30,151 bases of DNA from a virus. Below, piece by piece: positions 155 to 27,224 of the stretch. The notes beneath the pieces are model-generated. The model made no database searches, was not told the origin of the DNA, and was given only the letters and a program-made list of their open reading frames with translations. Position numbers and translations under genes: made by a program. Each line of letters begins with the position of its first letter. The stretch's first letter is position 1. The DNA is taken from IMG/VR virus record IMGVR_UViG_3300035157_000226, positions 1-30,151 of that record; one strand, 5' to 3'.

Positions 155-305
155 GGAATACGTTAAAGTAACAGATTATCTCGATAGTATTGAGATGCGT
201 CTAAGAGCACTTGAAAAAGATTCCCATAAAGCTCCTAGAACGAATCATGGGGAAAGACTTACCAAACTAGAACAGAAGATCAATGACTCCAGCACAAATA
301 TATAA
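132..305 (+). CDS. small helical protein, 57 aa, unknown function
   Basis: I chose ATG at 132 (protein start MYKPPDSEEYVKV) because the upstream part of this frame overlaps a better coding frame ending at 154. A longer version starting at TTG 12 would give 97 aa. Two short amphipathic segments are visible: YLDSIEMRLRALEKD at about residues 15-29 and GERLTKLEQKI at about 40-50, with leucine/isoleucine spacing suggestive of coiled coil. There is no signal peptide or membrane segment. It overlaps the preceding gene by 23 nt and the following PAAR gene by 23 nt, which suggests translational coupling within a structural operon. A small virion or assembly protein is a reasonable guess from position; no family is recognised. 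Confidence 0.5.
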   Translation: MYKPPDSEEYVKVTDYLDSIEMRLRALEKDSHKAPRTNHGERLTKLEQKINDSSTNI

Positions 306-621
306 CGGTGGTGTAGAAACAGGTGGAGTTTGCCCCTGTACAACTCCTCCAACACCTATCGACTGTGCTGCGAGTGCAAGTAGAACAGTTCGGGTAAATA
401 ATCTAGCACCTGTTGTGATGAATGATAGTATGTCTCCAGCATCGGGTGCTACTTGTACATCTCCTCCTAGTGGATGTGTTTCTACCAGAATGGTAATTGC
501 TACATCTACTAAGGTATTTGTACAAGGTCAACCAGTAGCAAAGATAGGTGATATATTGAACGGTGGTACAAATATCAGATTATCTGGTGCTACACAATCA
601 GCAAATGTAAATTTTGGATAA
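283..621 (+). CDS. PAAR-motif protein, spike tip (T4 gp5.4-like)
   Basis: 112 aa. PAAR proteins form the sharp conical tip that caps the central spike of contractile tails and type VI secretion systems. The second half shows the family layout: a beta-strand segment TVRVNNLAPVVMNDSMSP (about residues 35-52), a Cys-containing loop, then TKVFVQGQPVAKIGDILNGG (about 76-95), which matches the usual pattern of a strand, a 'GxPxAxxGD' turn and a following Gly-rich strand. Cysteines cluster near the N-terminus (VCPC, DC) and mid-protein, which could bind metal as in known PAAR tips. In T4 the PAAR gene 5.4 lies just before gene 6, which fits the gp25 and gp6 homologues downstream here. It overlaps the upstream small gene, and its stop lies 4 nt before the next ATG. 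Confidence 0.8.
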   Translation: MTPAQIYNGGVETGGVCPCTTPPTPIDCAASASRTVRVNNLAPVVMNDSMSPASGATCTSPPSGCVSTRMVIATSTKVFVQGQPVAKIGDILNGGTNIRLSGATQSANVNFG

Positions 622-625
622 TATT

Positions 626-928
626 ATGTTATTTTTATCAAAACCTTCTGTGTATACATTACCTGGTACATGGGAGAAACAACCAGATCTACTGATTCCT
701 CACCTACATCTTTCACCTGATCAAGGTTTTATTTTATTCCTTGGTCTTGTTACTTTGTCTTTGGTTGGTTATGGGATATATCTCACATTTGGATCAGGCA
801 AGAAGGATTTAAGAGACCAGATTGATGAACATGCTAAGTTGCATGAGTTAGGTATTGCTCATGGACATGGTGGTAATAAGGGTGCTTATGAAATAAGTGG
901 TAAGCTTGACCATAAGCACGATTCGTAG
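626..928 (+). CDS. PsbN-like single-span membrane protein
   Basis: 100 aa from ATG 626. A TTG at 614 in the same frame would add four residues but overlaps the PAAR stop. One hydrophobic span (about residues 34-55) ends in GYGIYLTFG and is followed by KKDLRDQIDEH. This matches the PsbN pattern of a single transmembrane helix ending 'G..IY..FGPP...L.D.F..HE' (family knowledge). PsbN is a roughly 43-aa photosystem II assembly/repair factor of cyanobacteria and plastids; this protein is longer, with an extra 30-residue soluble N-terminus and a His/Gly-rich C-terminal tail (H69, H73, H79, H81 and HKH near the end). The Pro-Pro after FG is replaced by Ser-Gly. It may act on host thylakoids, or it may simply be a phage membrane protein that resembles PsbN. 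Confidence 0.6.
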   Translation: MLFLSKPSVYTLPGTWEKQPDLLIPHLHLSPDQGFILFLGLVTLSLVGYGIYLTFGSGKKDLRDQIDEHAKLHELGIAHGHGGNKGAYEISGKLDHKHDS

Positions 929-934
929 TATACT
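906..934 (+). promoter_or_regulatory. sigma-70-type promoter (-35 TTGACC, -10 TATACT, 17-nt spacer)
   Basis: TTGACC at 906-911 and TATACT at 929-934 are separated by exactly 17 nt, and each hexamer matches the bacterial consensus at 5 of 6 positions. It overlaps the end of the PsbN-like gene, and transcription would start about 19 nt before the ATG at 960. Host-type promoters drive early genes in T4-like cyanophages, so the downstream block may be expressed earlier than the virion genes. Confidence 0.6.
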
Positions 935-959
935 ATTGAAGTAGTTTGATATCTTATCA

Positions 960-1109
960 ATGGCGATAAGGAGTAAAAGTCTAAGTGGTGGCGAATACGT
1001 AGAAGCAATACCCAAGAAGACCCGACAGGGAATGGGGAAACATACTAAATACAGTGCCAGCTCTCGTAATGGGGCTAAAAAACGCTATCGAGGTCAAGGG
1101 AGAAAATAA
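960..1109 (+). CDS. small basic protein, 49 aa, unknown function
   Basis: ATG 960 to TAA 1107-1109. The protein is strongly basic: it carries many Lys/Arg residues, including KKTRQGMGKHTKY (about residues 19-31) and a C-terminal stretch NGAKKRYRGQGRK, with almost no hydrophobic core. Such composition suggests nucleic acid or ribosome binding, but this is inference. My recollection is that small basic proteins with a 'GEYVEA.PKKTRQG' start recur in T4-like cyanophages; this could not be checked here. It begins about 19 nt after the predicted start of transcription from the 906-934 promoter. The A of its TAA is immediately followed by the ATG of the next gene. Its codons include CGA, GGG and CCC, which are rare in the neighbouring giants. 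Confidence 0.7.
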   Translation: MAIRSKSLSGGEYVEAIPKKTRQGMGKHTKYSASSRNGAKKRYRGQGRK

Positions 1110-1241
1110 ATGCCTAACACATTTGGATACACAGTCGGGAAACCGAGGAACCTTCAATATCGTTCCGATTGGGATGATGATAAGGACGGTAATATAGATA
1201 CTGAAGAAAGGGAGAAGTACAATCCAGAGGAATCTGAATAA
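1110..1241 (+). CDS. 43-aa acidic protein with one EF-hand-type calcium loop
   Basis: ATG 1110 directly abuts the previous stop; TAA is at 1239-1241. The centre contains DDDKDGNIDTEE (residues 22-33), which fills every canonical EF-hand loop position: Asp at 1, 3 and 5, Gly at 6, Ile at 8, Asp at 9 and Glu at 12. The flanks (NLQYRSDW before, REKYNPEE after) are too short for a full helix-loop-helix pair, so it may work as a single Ca2+-binding loop, or the loop may be a beta-type calcium site like those in dockerin or structural proteins. No homologue is recognised with certainty. It lies in the small-gene cluster behind the sigma-70-type promoter. Confidence 0.65.
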   Translation: MPNTFGYTVGKPRNLQYRSDWDDDKDGNIDTEEREKYNPEESE

Positions 1242-1258
1242 CGGCGAAGGCTCCGAAT

Positions 1259-1405
1259 ATGGATAATCAAAAGGATAAAGAAAAACAATTCATCTCCGAA
1301 TGCGATTCTGATTGGTACTTAAGTAAGTCCAAAAAGAGAGACGTAAGTAAGGTCAAAGACGATCTTATAGATTGGGATGAAGCAATAGACTATACACACT
1401 GTTAA
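1259..1405 (+). CDS. small charged protein, 48 aa, unknown function
   Basis: ATG 1259 to TAA 1403-1405, with the next ATG starting at 1406. The protein is highly charged: a Lys-rich N-terminus (MDNQKDKEKQF), an aromatic patch DSDWYLSKSKKRD near residues 16-28 and an acidic C-terminus with DDLIDWDEAIDY. It has two cysteines (C15 and the final residue C48). No signal, membrane span or known family is seen. The end-to-end arrangement with its neighbours and the A/T-ending codons support it as a real gene. It ends the trio of mini-genes that precede the oxygenase-like genes. Confidence 0.6.
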   Translation: MDNQKDKEKQFISECDSDWYLSKSKKRDVSKVKDDLIDWDEAIDYTHC

Positions 1406-1981
1406 ATGACTAAAAAAGGTGACGTGTGCTCAAACATCATGAGCCACATTTTTATTGTATCTAACTTTTTAACTGAAACAGAAGCAGACGCTATTTATGA
1501 TCAGGTACTTGTAAAAGAACCAGAATGGATGGCATTAGGTCCACACGACTATGCTGGTGTAAAGGGTGATAAACTCACTGGGCGTTTTAAATACTATAAT
1601 GGACTTGATGATGAAATCATCGGGTCTATTTTAGTGCCTAAGCTTAGAACCATGTTCGGACGCAATAGATGGGTTCAGTGCTGGTTCAATACCTTTAGAG
1701 AAGGTGACTGTATTACAAAGCATATACACAATGACCCCTCTAAACCCCATCATGCTCGACCAAAATCATTTACCTGTGGAAATCTATTTCTTGGTGGAGA
1801 TGAAGCAACTGGTACGATCTATGATGGTATAAACTATGAGAATAAAAAGGGTCGTCTTTTAATCTTTAGGGACGATATACCTCATTGGTCAAAACCTTAT
1901 ACTGGAAAGGACGTTCGTATTACTATGGCATGTGATATACATGACCATAAGTTGAACAATAACATGAGAAAGTTGAATTGA
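1406..1981 (+). CDS. 2-oxoglutarate/Fe(II) oxygenase-like protein (first of three)
   Basis: 191 aa from ATG 1406; ATG 1439 (protein start MSHIFIVSNF) is an equally plausible start and begins where the conserved fold seems to begin. It carries the double-stranded beta-helix signature of 2OG/Fe(II) enzymes: HIHND at 106-110 (HxD metal ligands H108 and D110), the strand NLFLGGD near 125-131, a distal metal-ligand candidate H160 in DDIPHWSKP and R171 in DVRITMACD as the likely 2-oxoglutarate carboxylate ligand. The third gene of this cluster is a clear paralog (same CGNLFLGGD/CTNLFLGGD and GxxYxxxxxxNKxGxLxxF layout). The substrate is unknown; phage relatives are often annotated only as oxygenases. 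Its TGA overlaps the next ATG. Confidence 0.75.
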   Translation: MTKKGDVCSNIMSHIFIVSNFLTETEADAIYDQVLVKEPEWMALGPHDYAGVKGDKLTGRFKYYNGLDDEIIGSILVPKLRTMFGRNRWVQCWFNTFREGDCITKHIHNDPSKPHHARPKSFTCGNLFLGGDEATGTIYDGINYENKKGRLLIFRDDIPHWSKPYTGKDVRITMACDIHDHKLNNNMRKLN

Positions 1982-2664
1982 TGTATCAGATCAATACCCG
2001 AAAACCTAAGAGAGTTGAATATGGTCTCATATTTGATGACTTTCTGAAATATCCAGATAAAGTCGCCGAGATGTTGTTCACATTAAACCCTATAGCTCAT
2101 AAGAAAGGGTGTGAAGCAAGAGAGTTACCATCTTATAATGGTAAACTGTTTAAAGACATGAGACATACCTTATATTCCAATAAGGTTGAAGCAATTTATA
2201 AGTTATTGGGTCGTTGGTCGAAACAAAATCCTTTAGGTGATCCAAGTGACGGTAACTTAGGGAAAAGAATCACCACTAATGTGTTTCGTATAAAGGATGA
2301 TCCCTTTCATACACCCGATACCCATTACTGGTGGCCACATTATGATATGGGATGGACTGCTATTCTTTATTTGAATGAAATTGATGATACTGGTACTAAT
2401 TTGTATCGTAGTTTAGATAAAGGAGAAGAGGAAGCAAAAGATATTACAGAAGAACATTATGAACCTTGGAGATCTAAAGATAAGTACGAACTTCTGTATA
2501 CATTTGAACCTAAGTTCAATCGTCTAGTATTTTTTAATGCTAAGGATATATGTCATGGGCAAAACATACATAGTGAAAGCGAACTCTTTCGCACAAACAA
2601 ATGTAGAATGAATCAGGTGTTCTTTTTTGATGGATATAGTAAAAATTCCCCAATTCATCACTGA
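1981..2664 (+). CDS. prolyl-hydroxylase-like / DUF6445-type 2OG-Fe(II) oxygenase (second of three)
   Basis: 227 aa from ATG 1981, which overlaps the upstream stop in a TTGATG junction. Core motifs are HYD at 120-122 within WWPHYDMGWTAILYLN (iron ligands H120 and D122), the following strand GTNLYRS, the distal H192 in KDICHGQNIH and R209 near the C-terminus in KCRMNQVFFF. This order (HxD, about 70 residues, H, about 17 residues, R) is typical of the non-heme iron 2OG oxygenase fold. It is only distantly similar to the flanking pair and resembles DUF6445-type proteins. The substrate cannot be read from sequence; protein, nucleotide or glycan hydroxylation are all possible. It overlaps the next gene by 35 nt, implying coupled translation. 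Confidence 0.7.
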   Translation: MYQINTRKPKRVEYGLIFDDFLKYPDKVAEMLFTLNPIAHKKGCEARELPSYNGKLFKDMRHTLYSNKVEAIYKLLGRWSKQNPLGDPSDGNLGKRITTNVFRIKDDPFHTPDTHYWWPHYDMGWTAILYLNEIDDTGTNLYRSLDKGEEEAKDITEEHYEPWRSKDKYELLYTFEPKFNRLVFFNAKDICHGQNIHSESELFRTNKCRMNQVFFFDGYSKNSPIHH

Positions 2665-3139
2665 AGATGAATGTGATGTGATAATAGAAGAACTTTCATC
2701 TCTAGCAGGTGATCGTAAAGCATTTTATGGTGTTGGATTATCATATGGAGAGAATCCACTTGATGTACCTCGTATAAAAGATATATTGTGGAGTAAACTA
2801 CAGTTATTATTTGGTAGAAGATCTTATGTGAACTGTTGGGGTAATATACTCTCATCAGGTATGCAGGTAGAACCACATAAGCATAGAGATAAAACAGATA
2901 GAAGGTCTAAGGGAGAAAAATATCCGTATCGCTGTACAAACCTGTTTCTAGGTGGAGATCCTTCAATAGGTACAGTATATGGTAAGGAAAAGCATATTAA
3001 TAAGAGAGGAGAACTTGTAGTCTTTAGTTCTGAACTGGTTCATAGTGTTCCAGTTATTACATCAAGTGGATATCGTTTTTCATTGATTATGGACTTCATG
3101 AGTACGAAAGTTGATGAGGACTGGATTAAACTGAATTAA
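2630..3139 (+). CDS. 2-oxoglutarate/Fe(II) oxygenase-like protein (third of three; paralog of the first)
   Basis: 169 aa from ATG 2630. Metal-binding candidates are HKHRD at 83-87 (H85 and D87), H138 in SSELVHSVPV and R149 in GYRFSLIMDF as the 2-oxoglutarate anchor. The spacing and surrounding strands (TNLFLGGDPSIGTVYG, NKRGELVVF) parallel the 1406 gene closely, so the two are probably products of an old duplication, with the unrelated-looking 1981 gene between them. The N-terminus (IVKIPQFITEDECDVIIEEL) likewise resembles that of the first. It overlaps the previous gene by 35 nt. A late-promoter-like motif starts 5 nt after its stop, marking the end of this islet. Confidence 0.72.
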   Translation: MDIVKIPQFITEDECDVIIEELSSLAGDRKAFYGVGLSYGENPLDVPRIKDILWSKLQLLFGRRSYVNCWGNILSSGMQVEPHKHRDKTDRRSKGEKYPYRCTNLFLGGDPSIGTVYGKEKHINKRGELVVFSSELVHSVPVITSSGYRFSLIMDFMSTKVDEDWIKLN

Positions 3140-3143
3140 AGTC

Positions 3144-3151
3144 GCTAAATA
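3144..3151 (+). promoter_or_regulatory. late-promoter-like motif GCTAAATA upstream of gp25
   Basis: GCTAAATA lies 25 nt before the gp25 ATG and just after the oxygenase stop. It differs by two bases from the T4 late consensus TATAAATA and recurs identically at 27194-27201. It probably opens late transcription of the gp25-gp6-giant block. Confidence 0.5.
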
Positions 3152-3176
3152 AAGTGATACTCTTATATCGCTTTGA

Positions 3177-3569
3177 ATGGCTTCATTCACTCCGTTTAAA
3201 GACATAGCAATTTCATTCACAAGAAATAAGATCACAGATGATATTCTTGTGAAGAAAGATGCAGCTGCGGTAAAGCAAGCAGTAATTAATATATTACTTA
3301 CAAATAAAGGTGAACGGCTGTTCGATTCAAGTTATGGATCGGATGTGCCGTCTTATTTGTTTAATCCGTTGGATTATGGTACTGCTGCACAGATAGAGAA
3401 TGCGATTCAAGCAGCATTGAGATATGAACCAAGAATTAGGATAATAGACTTAGGTGTTGAACCTGATTTCGATAGTAATGGATTTGAAGTTCTATTGAGC
3501 TTCAATATTATAGGTCGTAACGACTCTATTCCTTATGAAATTGAATTCTTCCTTGAAAGTACACGATAA
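3177..3569 (+). CDS. 25: baseplate wedge subunit, T4 gp25-like (GPW/gp25 family)
   Basis: 130 aa, nearly the same length as T4 gp25 (132 aa). gp25-family proteins sit in the baseplate wedge core beside gp6 and are thought to help nucleate sheath assembly. Visible family features are a short N-terminal beta stretch, a helix with AAVKQAVINILLTNKGER (about residues 29-46), the conserved FDSSYGSDVPSYLFNPLD segment (about 49-66) and a C-terminal strand region ending in IPYEIEFFLE. The 'L.T..GER.....YGS......F' pattern is diagnostic for the family. No clear Shine-Dalgarno precedes the ATG. The stop overlaps the gp6 start in TAATG, as expected for coupled wedge genes. Confidence 0.88.
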   Translation: MASFTPFKDIAISFTRNKITDDILVKKDAAAVKQAVINILLTNKGERLFDSSYGSDVPSYLFNPLDYGTAAQIENAIQAALRYEPRIRIIDLGVEPDFDSNGFEVLLSFNIIGRNDSIPYEIEFFLESTR

Positions 3570-25462: not shown

Positions 25463-26905
25463 ATGAAACTGATTGGTTTGAGGTTGTGTGAACACGACTC
25501 TAATGTATCATATTATGATGGTAAGACTGTAAGATACTTTAAGTCTGAAAGAATCTATGATGTAAAGCATCATGGATATAGTAACTTACATTCTTGGAAG
25601 AAAGATTTTAAAGATATATTTGGTGATGATCCAGAGGAAGCAGATGAGATAGCAATAGTTATTGATCCTTGGGTTCATGATCTACCAGTTGATAACGAGG
25701 AGTTTTTCCCTGCTATCAAATATCCTACTGTATCAGATAACTGTTATAGGGTAAATCATCATTATGCACATGCTCTTAGCACATTTGAAAAGAATTGTTT
25801 GCATATAGTTATAGATGGGTTTGGTGATGAGAATAATAGTTGGTCTGTCTTTAGAAATGGAGAAGTAGTTGATAGAGGTTACTGTGATGAACATGGATCT
25901 ATTGGTTGTGAGATGATCAGAGTTGGTAAGCTTCTTAGTATTAAAGCAGGTTGTGATTTAGATGTTGCTGGTAAATTGATGGGATTGCAGTCTTATGGTA
26001 CTTACATGAATGAGTATGCTAGGATTTTACCAAAGACTATGCATAATATTAGAAGAATATTTGAAGATAGTAGATATAAAGCATTTGAGAGAGATATGTT
26101 TGGTACTCTTGGTATATCCAAATTAAACTGGATAAGGACTGTACACGAACATATTGGTGAAGTATTAGTTGATTTCTTTAGAGAGTATGCATACCATGAT
26201 AATGATGTTATTACATACACTGGTGGTGTAGCTCAGAATGTTATATGGAATACAAAATTAAAAAATGTATTTAAAAACTTAGTCATACCAGCACATTGTG
26301 CTGATGAAGGATTATCATTAGGTGCTTTAGAATTTTTAAGAAGAAAGAATAATATAGATCCTTTTGTGGTTGAGTACCATCAACAAGATATTGCTGCAGA
26401 GAAACCAGTTTCTGATATGACAGTTGCTAAAGTGGCACATGCATTAAAGGAAGGTAAGATAGTTGGATGGTATCAAGGATATGGAGAGATCGGACCTAGA
26501 GCATTGGGTAACAGATCAATTCTTATGAATCCATATATTGATAATGCTAAGAAGAAAATTAACTTTATTAAGAAGAGAGAAGGGTATAGACCATTTGGTG
26601 CATCTATATTAGAAGGGTATCAGAAACAGATATTTGATACGGATATCCAGAATCCACATATGCTTTATGTTGGAGAAACTGCTGCTCCAGGATTGGAATC
26701 AATAACTCATGTGGATGGTACATGTAGGTATCAAACGGTAACACAGAAGAATGAGAGTTACTATAAACTGTTGCAAGTACTGGAGTTTCCCATATTACTT
26801 AATACTAGTATGAATCTTGCTGGTAAACCAATCATGAGCAAACCAAAGAATTTCCCTAAAGGTTTGGACATGGTGGTTGTCGGAAATGAGATAAGTGTGC
26901 TATAA
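25463..26905 (+). CDS. carbamoyltransferase, NodU/CmcH/TobZ family
   Basis: 480 aa. The family transfers a carbamoyl group from carbamoyl phosphate, through carbamoyl-adenylate, to a hydroxyl of a sugar or antibiotic. The N-terminal Kae1-like domain has HHYAHA at 99-104 (the metal-binding H99 and H103 pattern), DGFGD at 118-122, an Asp/Gly nucleotide loop around DLDVAGKLMG, and TGGVAQN at 253-259. The C-terminal domain has IGPRALGNRSIL at 343-354, YRPFGAS at 375-381 and LNTSMNLAGKPI from about 446, all characteristic. Length is somewhat short for the family (often 540-600) but all key motifs are kept, so it is probably active. It sits among tail genes, suggesting modification of a surface sugar or glycosylated virion protein, although the target is unknown. 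Confidence 0.9.
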   Translation: MKLIGLRLCEHDSNVSYYDGKTVRYFKSERIYDVKHHGYSNLHSWKKDFKDIFGDDPEEADEIAIVIDPWVHDLPVDNEEFFPAIKYPTVSDNCYRVNHHYAHALSTFEKNCLHIVIDGFGDENNSWSVFRNGEVVDRGYCDEHGSIGCEMIRVGKLLSIKAGCDLDVAGKLMGLQSYGTYMNEYARILPKTMHNIRRIFEDSRYKAFERDMFGTLGISKLNWIRTVHEHIGEVLVDFFREYAYHDNDVITYTGGVAQNVIWNTKLKNVFKNLVIPAHCADEGLSLGALEFLRRKNNIDPFVVEYHQQDIAAEKPVSDMTVAKVAHALKEGKIVGWYQGYGEIGPRALGNRSILMNPYIDNAKKKINFIKKREGYRPFGASILEGYQKQIFDTDIQNPHMLYVGETAAPGLESITHVDGTCRYQTVTQKNESYYKLLQVLEFPILLNTSMNLAGKPIMSKPKNFPKGLDMVVVGNEISVL

Positions 26906-26906
26906 T
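26877..26906 (+). promoter_or_regulatory. sigma-70-like promoter with extended -10 (TTGTCG, TGcTATAAT)
   Basis: TATAAT at 26901-26906 is a perfect -10 preceded by TG one base upstream (extended -10). TTGTCG at 26877-26882 is a weak -35 at 18-nt spacing. It overlaps the carbamoyltransferase stop (26903-26905) and lies 28 nt before the next ATG. Confidence 0.5.
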
Positions 26907-26934
26907 ATATACTGTAGTAGATCGATCAACTATA

Positions 26935-27174
26935 ATGGCAATGGATCCAGCGAGTCTAAAAGACGAGTTCACAAAACAACTTGCTGATGCTAATGATAAA
27001 ATTTCAAAAGCAGAAGCAGAACTTATCCGTTTGAGAGAGTACCGTACTAAACTACAAGGTGGTTTAGAAACAATCGGTATTATAACTGGTGAAGAACCAG
27101 CTCCAGAGGGAACACCACCACCTACAGAAGGTGAAGATGCTCCAACAGAAGCACCTCCAACTGTAGAAGGTTAA
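26935..27174 (+). CDS. small coiled-coil protein with acidic Pro-rich tail, 79 aa
   Basis: ATG 26935 (a second in-frame ATG at 26941 is possible). Residues about 8-45 form one helix with repeated Ala/Leu/Glu spacing (FTKQLADANDKISKAEAELI, then LREYRTKLQGGLETI), a likely coiled coil. The rest is a low-complexity Glu/Pro/Thr tail (GEEPAPEGTPPPTEGEDAPT) that should be disordered. There is no cysteine and no membrane span. It is followed by a terminator hairpin and preceded by a sigma-70-like promoter, so it may be a single-gene transcript. Small proteins of this shape are common near cyanophage tail genes; their role is unknown to me. Confidence 0.7.
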   Translation: MAMDPASLKDEFTKQLADANDKISKAEAELIRLREYRTKLQGGLETIGIITGEEPAPEGTPPPTEGEDAPTEAPPTVEG

Positions 27175-27186
27175 TATAATAAACTT

Positions 27187-27219
27187 ACCCCTTGCTAAAT
27201 AGTGAGGGGTTCTTTATTT
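27187..27219 (+). terminator. intrinsic-terminator-like hairpin after the 79-aa gene
   Basis: A perfect 6-bp stem ACCCCT (27187-27192) / AGGGGT (27205-27210) encloses a 12-nt loop and is followed by the T-rich run TCTTTATTT. The stem is short but GC-rich. The loop contains a late-promoter-like motif. Confidence 0.55.
27194..27201 (+). promoter_or_regulatory. late-promoter-like motif GCTAAATA in the terminator loop
   Basis: Identical to the motif upstream of gp25, placed 23 nt before the ATG at 27225. This would stop upstream transcripts and start a late transcript of the next two genes at the same spot. Confidence 0.5.
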
Positions 27220-27224
27220 GTCAG

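Follow-up and report, generated by a model that had tools for sequence, protein, structure and literature searches.

How does a gene newly captured by a phage come to be expressed at the right time? Cyanophage accessory genes affect photosynthesis and nutrient use in the ocean, and how they achieve this timing is seldom clear. We addressed the question at a locus in IMGVR_UViG_3300035157_000226, a 30,151-base IMG/VR virus fragment (hereafter the window) from a T4-like cyanophage whose nearest named relatives are Kyanoviridae. Here a mini-gene of the family phrog_516 (M516), two further mini-genes (M2 and M3) and three genes for 2-oxoglutarate (2OG)-Fe(II) oxygenases (OX1 to OX3) lie in the baseplate block, 5' of gp25, and a sigma-70-type promoter precedes M516. 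The interval between M516 and gp25 is a real accessory-gene hotspot, in which the promoter and phrog_516 are resident and the cargo is placed behind them. A fixed host-type promoter at a site of gene capture would be a simple answer to the timing question, and phages in cultivation (S-PM2, Syn1, S-RSM4) allow it to be tested.

A conserved host-type promoter upstream of phrog_516

The original prediction, made from the window's sequence alone, placed a promoter of the form TTGACC-17-TATACT over the end of a PsbN-like gene. The promoter is indeed there: it matches at 10 of 12 positions, its hexamer spacing falls inside the 16-18 nt range, and the 3' end of the PsbN-like open reading frame (ORF) overlaps its -35 element. 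Transcription is predicted to start near position 941. As a single-sequence match the promoter was not above chance, with 15 sigma-70-like sites in 5 kb compared with 19.2 +/- 4.5 in shuffled sequences. Its significance comes instead from its conservation in relatives. The strict extended -10 element TGNTATAAT was found in 22 of 89 distinct 80-nt sequences upstream of M516, whereas 200 shuffles averaged 1.6 and never exceeded 4. These sites were clustered in the window's clade, which comprises the loci with a gp25 at least about 44% identical to that of the window (16 of 28 M516 upstream sequences, against 3 of 54 elsewhere). The control regions carried the element in only 1 of 27 cases upstream of gp25 and in 0 of 26 upstream of gp6.

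Alignment of non-redundant sequences on the -10 element revealed a common TTGNC spaced 17 nt from it, a TGTG on its 5' side and GT at the expected start. Among the variants are TTGACA-17-TACAAT in loci L133, L136 and L172 and TTGACC-17-TATACT in the window, L002 and L003. We then scored the window with a promoter profile trained on 13 sequences, from which the window and its close relatives were excluded. With 17.2 bits, the window's site took first place among the 60,226 positions of the two strands, the runners-up reaching 7.7 bits on the + strand and 15.9 bits on the - strand. The promoter was also present in nine of nine further isolates fetched afterwards, ranking first or second in their own loci, although these isolates are partly related to each other and to the training set and do not represent nine independent cases. 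Thus one large group of Kyanoviridae shares a sigma-70 promoter with an extended -10 element 5' of its first mini-gene.

Variable gene content between phrog_516 and gp25

Our analysis singles out phrog_516, a basic protein of 48-49 amino acids (aa) that occurs in hundreds of cyanophages and is conserved far above the neighboring baseplate proteins. The M516 protein is very basic (isoelectric point 11.1), matches 447 phage records and has a median identity of 75% across its family, compared with about 39% for gp25. Its gene lies shortly 5' of gp25 in nearly all loci examined, an exception being S-B43, where no copy of M516 was detected. Searches of PDB and Pfam returned no relative of M516. A CTAAATA motif at position 1045 inside the gene, considered as a possible cryptic late promoter, results from the codons for Thr-Lys-Tyr, and only one clade has it commonly. 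M516 is a core gene that forms the left border of the hotspot, and gp25 forms the right border.

That the interval may be an insertion hotspot had been part of the original prediction, and the comparison of 96 loci bore this out. The gap between M516 and gp25 ranged from 53 to 4061 bp with a standard deviation of 823 bp, compared with 7 bp for the gp25-gp6 junction; the flanks are fixed, the content is variable, and near-empty sites are included. The cargo differs by lineage. It comprises at least five groups of 2OG oxygenases, SET-domain proteins, a SAICAR synthetase gene (purC) beside a purM-like gene, the PsbN-like gene (in L133 and L136; L133:3024-3188), phrog_3704 ('ferredoxin') proteins and an M3-type mini-gene, which is usually immediately 5' of gp25. 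Cargo was found on either side of this M3-type mini-gene: in the lineage of the window it lies on the gp25 side, and in L011 and its relatives on the opposite side. In L006 and L007 there is a fourth oxygenase, a second gene of the OX2 type. The promoter is retained while both the cargo and the upstream neighbors change. Because of this persistence, what had been predicted as an inserted module with its own promoter between PAAR and gp25 is better read as cargo behind a resident promoter: the part concerning accessory cargo behind a host-type promoter stood, but the promoter and phrog_516 are resident, and the variation lies in the stretch from phrog_516 to gp25.

The T4 interval between gene 5 and gene 6 likewise has accessory genes, segC and gene 5.4, near PAAR and baseplate wedge genes. 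Unlike there, no homing nuclease, and also no integrase or transposase, was noticed here in the annotation or among the scanned cargo proteins, the scans being neither exhaustive nor dedicated to such genes. Cyanomyoviruses also have a hyperplastic region between g15 and g18 (Millard 2009, described in PMC2984593), which is alike in having variable accessory genes in the structural block of T4-like cyanophages. The present locus differs in its site (phrog_516 to gp25), in the conserved host-type promoter in front and in a cargo rich in 2OG oxygenases. No description of the phrog_516-gp25 site was found in the literature searched, a coverage outside which most subscription journals lie.

As a separate observation, the SET-domain proteins of the cargo are 97 aa long (Pfam SET 1.7e-11) and are encoded shortly 5' of gp25 at L091:7194-7487 and in ten other loci.

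Gene layout and cargo proteins

The promoter is followed, as had been proposed, by three mini-genes and three oxygenase-like genes (Table 1). The ORFs were confirmed, and the oxygenases have Pfam or PHROG matches, two of them below the curated Pfam cut-off. All six ORFs are under purifying selection, with ratios of nonsynonymous to synonymous substitution rates (dN/dS) mostly of 0.01-0.3; one M516 pair with few changes reached 0.61. The packing is operon-like, the majority of the block's genes touching or overlapping: OX2 shares 1 nt with the stop codon of OX1, and OX3 overlaps OX2 by 35 nt. After gp25 comes gp6.

Table 1. Positions of the promoter, the cargo genes and their neighbors in the window.
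Feature	Position	Strand	Remarks
PAAR gene	283-621		
PsbN-like gene, 100 aa, phrog_8051	626-928	+	Pfam PsbN 24.9 bits vs cut-off 25; PHROG match
Sigma-70 promoter TTGACC-17-TATACT	906-934	+	-35 element 906-911, -10 element 929-934
M516, 49 aa, phrog_516 / T4-GC394	960-1109	+	
M2, 43-aa acidic mini-protein, EF-hand-type loop	1110-1241	+	
M3, 48-aa acidic mini-protein	1259-1405	+	Distant phrog_12480-type family member
OX1, 2OG-Fe(II) oxygenase	1406-1981	+	Pfam/PHROG match, predicted fold like prolyl-4-hydroxylase
Hairpin and U-run over OX1 start	1424-1455	+	Possible attenuator, weak
OX2, DUF6445 / phrog_1644-type 2OG-Fe(II) oxygenase	1981-2664	+	
OX3, 2OG-Fe(II) oxygenase	2630-3139	+	Distant OX1 paralogue
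Late-promoter element CTAAATA, 5' of gp25	3145-3151	+	
gp25 baseplate wedge gene	3177-3569	+	Pfam GPW_gp25 1.6e-12; phrog_261 2.4e-45

In alignments, the HxD/E...H iron ligands and the distal Arg are kept in OX1, OX2 and OX3, and OX2 passes the Pfam cut-off for DUF6445 (29.6 vs 24). The predicted structures of OX1 and OX2, with a predicted local distance difference test score (pLDDT) of 86 and 75 respectively, match solved 2OG oxygenases with the double-stranded beta-helix fold. The closest structure to the OX1 model was the prolyl-4-hydroxylase of Pseudomonas putida (4j25; 4iw3 with EF-Tu), and vCPH of PBCV-1 (5c5t) was among the next-best matches. Both share the layout of the catalytic motif with OX1 but only 13-16% identity at a template modeling score (TM-score) of about 0.6; this is a resemblance of fold, and the substrate is not known to be shared. 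For the OX2 model the nearest structures were PHD2 and further prolyl hydroxylases, at scores below those of OX1. The chemistry is most likely a hydroxylation of proteins. OX2 occurs in 37 phage records, its best isolate match being about 41% identical; a search of GTDB genomes found no cellular relatives of it, and comparison of the OX profiles with PDB sequences gave nothing useful. Cyanophages are known to have several 2OG-Fe(II) oxygenase genes per genome (T4-GC104/240/412/611), of unknown function (PMC3037559). The genes described here belong to the same superfamily, but three different ones are contiguous (four in L006 and L007).

The mini-protein M2 contains a 12-residue loop, DDDKDGN[IV]DTEE, which is acidic at positions 1, 3, 5 and 12 and has Gly at position 6 and Ile or Val at position 8. 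The loop is near-invariant in ten sequences (position 3 being Asn in L009), whose M2 alignment has 29 invariant columns. M2 was found in 18 IMG/VR contigs, is restricted to the window's lineage and its sister, and had no match in isolates. Since its score for EF-hand_STIM1 is below the Pfam cut-off (17.0 vs 32.2 bits), M2 is on its sequence EF-hand-like only; its profile gave nothing useful against PDB sequences. M3 belongs distantly to the phrog_12480-type family, and in many relatives such genes lie directly 5' of gp25.

Expression timing and alternative explanations

Cyanomyoviruses are without motA/asiA; it is thought that their early genes use unmodified host polymerase and that overlapping early and late promoters replace the middle mode of T4 (PMC2984593). 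The phrog_516 promoter is like the early and overlapping early/late promoters of S-PM2 and RB49 (PMC2984593) in being of the host sigma-70 type in a T4-like phage without these genes. When the whole S-PM2 genome was searched with our profile, the top match was the psbA promoter (135237, 21.5 bits); further matches stand in front of td and a helicase gene, as well as of ORF p131 and p002. The S-PM2 orthologue of phrog_516 scored 9.8. The phrog_516 promoter is of the same class as that of psbA. However, the promoters of psbA and, in most relatives, of phrog_580 (a mini-gene described below) overlap a late element, whereas the phrog_516 promoter does not (TAAATA in 1 of 28). Based on the resemblance to the psbA promoter together with the lack of an overlapping late element, early or middle expression of the module is likely the better reading. 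The main text of the literature found gave no expression timing for the S-PM2 orthologue. At the far end of the module, the late motif that had been predicted to restart the baseplate genes is present; it fits the TATAAATA/CTAAATA-type T4 late -10 element and is conserved upstream of gp25, with TAAATA in 23 of 27 and 49 of 55 sequences in the two clades (72 of 82 together).

We therefore consider it probable that at this locus a resident host-type promoter fronts a hotspot of accessory genes, in the baseplate block of a T4-like Kyanoviridae cyanophage. The fixed frame consists of the sigma-70 promoter and phrog_516, with the late promoter and gp25 at the far end. Lineages gain, lose and duplicate cargo between phrog_516 and gp25, and this cargo would come under the control of the resident promoter. 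Host RNA polymerase in its unmodified form, carrying the main sigma factor, would begin transcription near 941 at a time when gp55, the late sigma of the phage, is not yet in charge; the proteins would thus appear in the early or middle phase, sooner than those of the virion genes on either side. With O2 and 2-oxoglutarate, the oxygenases may then hydroxylate protein targets, either of the phage or, in the host, among the proteins of translation or stress. A more far-reaching version is that one large clade maintains, within the late block, a docking site for foreign DNA behind a host-type promoter that is permanently conserved, where any metabolic or protein-modifying gene that is captured at once becomes an early or middle gene, here three to four hydroxylases and a calcium-binding mini-protein acting as a host-takeover unit. 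We put this forward tentatively, as a possibility that the balance does not favor.

Several observations count against the resident-promoter hotspot as outlined, beside the relatedness of the nine isolates. Two members of the clade, L139 and L175, are without the promoter. The other large Kyanoviridae clade (Syn9, P-SSM7) has phrog_516 without such a promoter, presumably depending on read-through, and early expression is therefore not universal. Concerning the oxygenases, OX1 (24.3) and OX3 (21.4) score below the Pfam cut-off of 27, and the TM-scores are modest, about 0.6 for OX1 and 0.4 for OX2. Finally, the hairpin and U-run at the start of OX1 could end many transcripts before they reach the oxygenases.

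The last point leads to an explanation in which the promoter serves mainly phrog_516, perhaps with M2 and M3, while an attenuator at the OX1 start leaves the oxygenases to be expressed mainly late by read-through. The hairpin recurs in relatives with changed stems, and phrog_516 is far more conserved than its neighbors, as this explanation would have it. Nevertheless, the folding z-scores are weak except in L006, other terminator-like sites recur within coding sequence as well, and the OX genes overlap in the manner of a coupled operon. We regard this arrangement as unlikely, and as a terminator the hairpin was set aside as recurrent but statistically weak, although less of the early transcription might reach the oxygenases because of it. 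(The scan for recurrent terminators covered even hairpin lengths only, which is probably why L006 was missed.) It is also distinctly unlikely that these are virion or baseplate accessory genes, all expressed late, with a promoter-like element that is not used early. The genes do have late virion genes around them, phrog_516 stands beside gp25 without the promoter in the Syn9/P-SSM7 clade, and phrog_1644, which OX2 matches, is annotated as 'minor coat protein'. Yet a full sigma-70 promoter is strongly conserved, also in held-out sequences, and a late motif is nearly absent at that place (TAAATA in the 1 of 28 upstream sequences); motif and fold alike mark OX2 as an oxygenase. Least probable is a single mobile islet, composed of the promoter and all six genes and inserted between PAAR and gp25. 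Close packing of the six genes would fit an islet, as would the lack of counterparts for most of them in isolates (none for M2, and only the 37 phage records for OX2). But phrog_516, with its 447 records, stands just 5' of gp25 with or without cargo, the promoter is conserved beside unrelated cargo, and the cargo is exchanged piece by piece, L005-L007 having a fourth oxygenase and L008, L009, L082 and L088 other genes. The islet is thus largely refuted: the promoter and phrog_516 stay whatever the cargo, and the predicted unity of the six genes and their promoter is not supported.

Some further observations concern the window and S-PM2. DNA comparison of the window with named phages gave nothing beyond short gp25/gp6 matches, and the window contains no tRNAs or Rfam RNAs. 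A possible stem AAAGTGAT/ATCGCTTT lies at 3151-3175, from the late motif to gp25, and is retained in close relatives. S-PM2 has a strong TTGACA-17-TATAAT with a TG extension at record position 118230 (locus L180), 5' of a stretch resembling a tRNA start; no gene is annotated there on that strand.

The module is not the only unit of its kind in the window, since within 26898-27174 another mini-gene, of phrog_580, is preceded by an extended -10 promoter of equal conservation. The promoter there (TGCTATAAT, 26898-26906) is again of the host type and shares sequence with the end of the gene for a Nol-like carbamoyltransferase (25463-26905). The strict extended -10 element occurs upstream of phrog_580 in 20 of 20 distinct relatives, and in most of them a late-type element, TATAATAAATA, overlaps it, as is the case for psbA of S-PM2. 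After the phrog_580 gene, at 27186-27220, there is a terminator-like hairpin ACCCCTTGCTAAATAGTGAGGGGT with a T-rich tail, whose loop holds a CTAAATA late motif.

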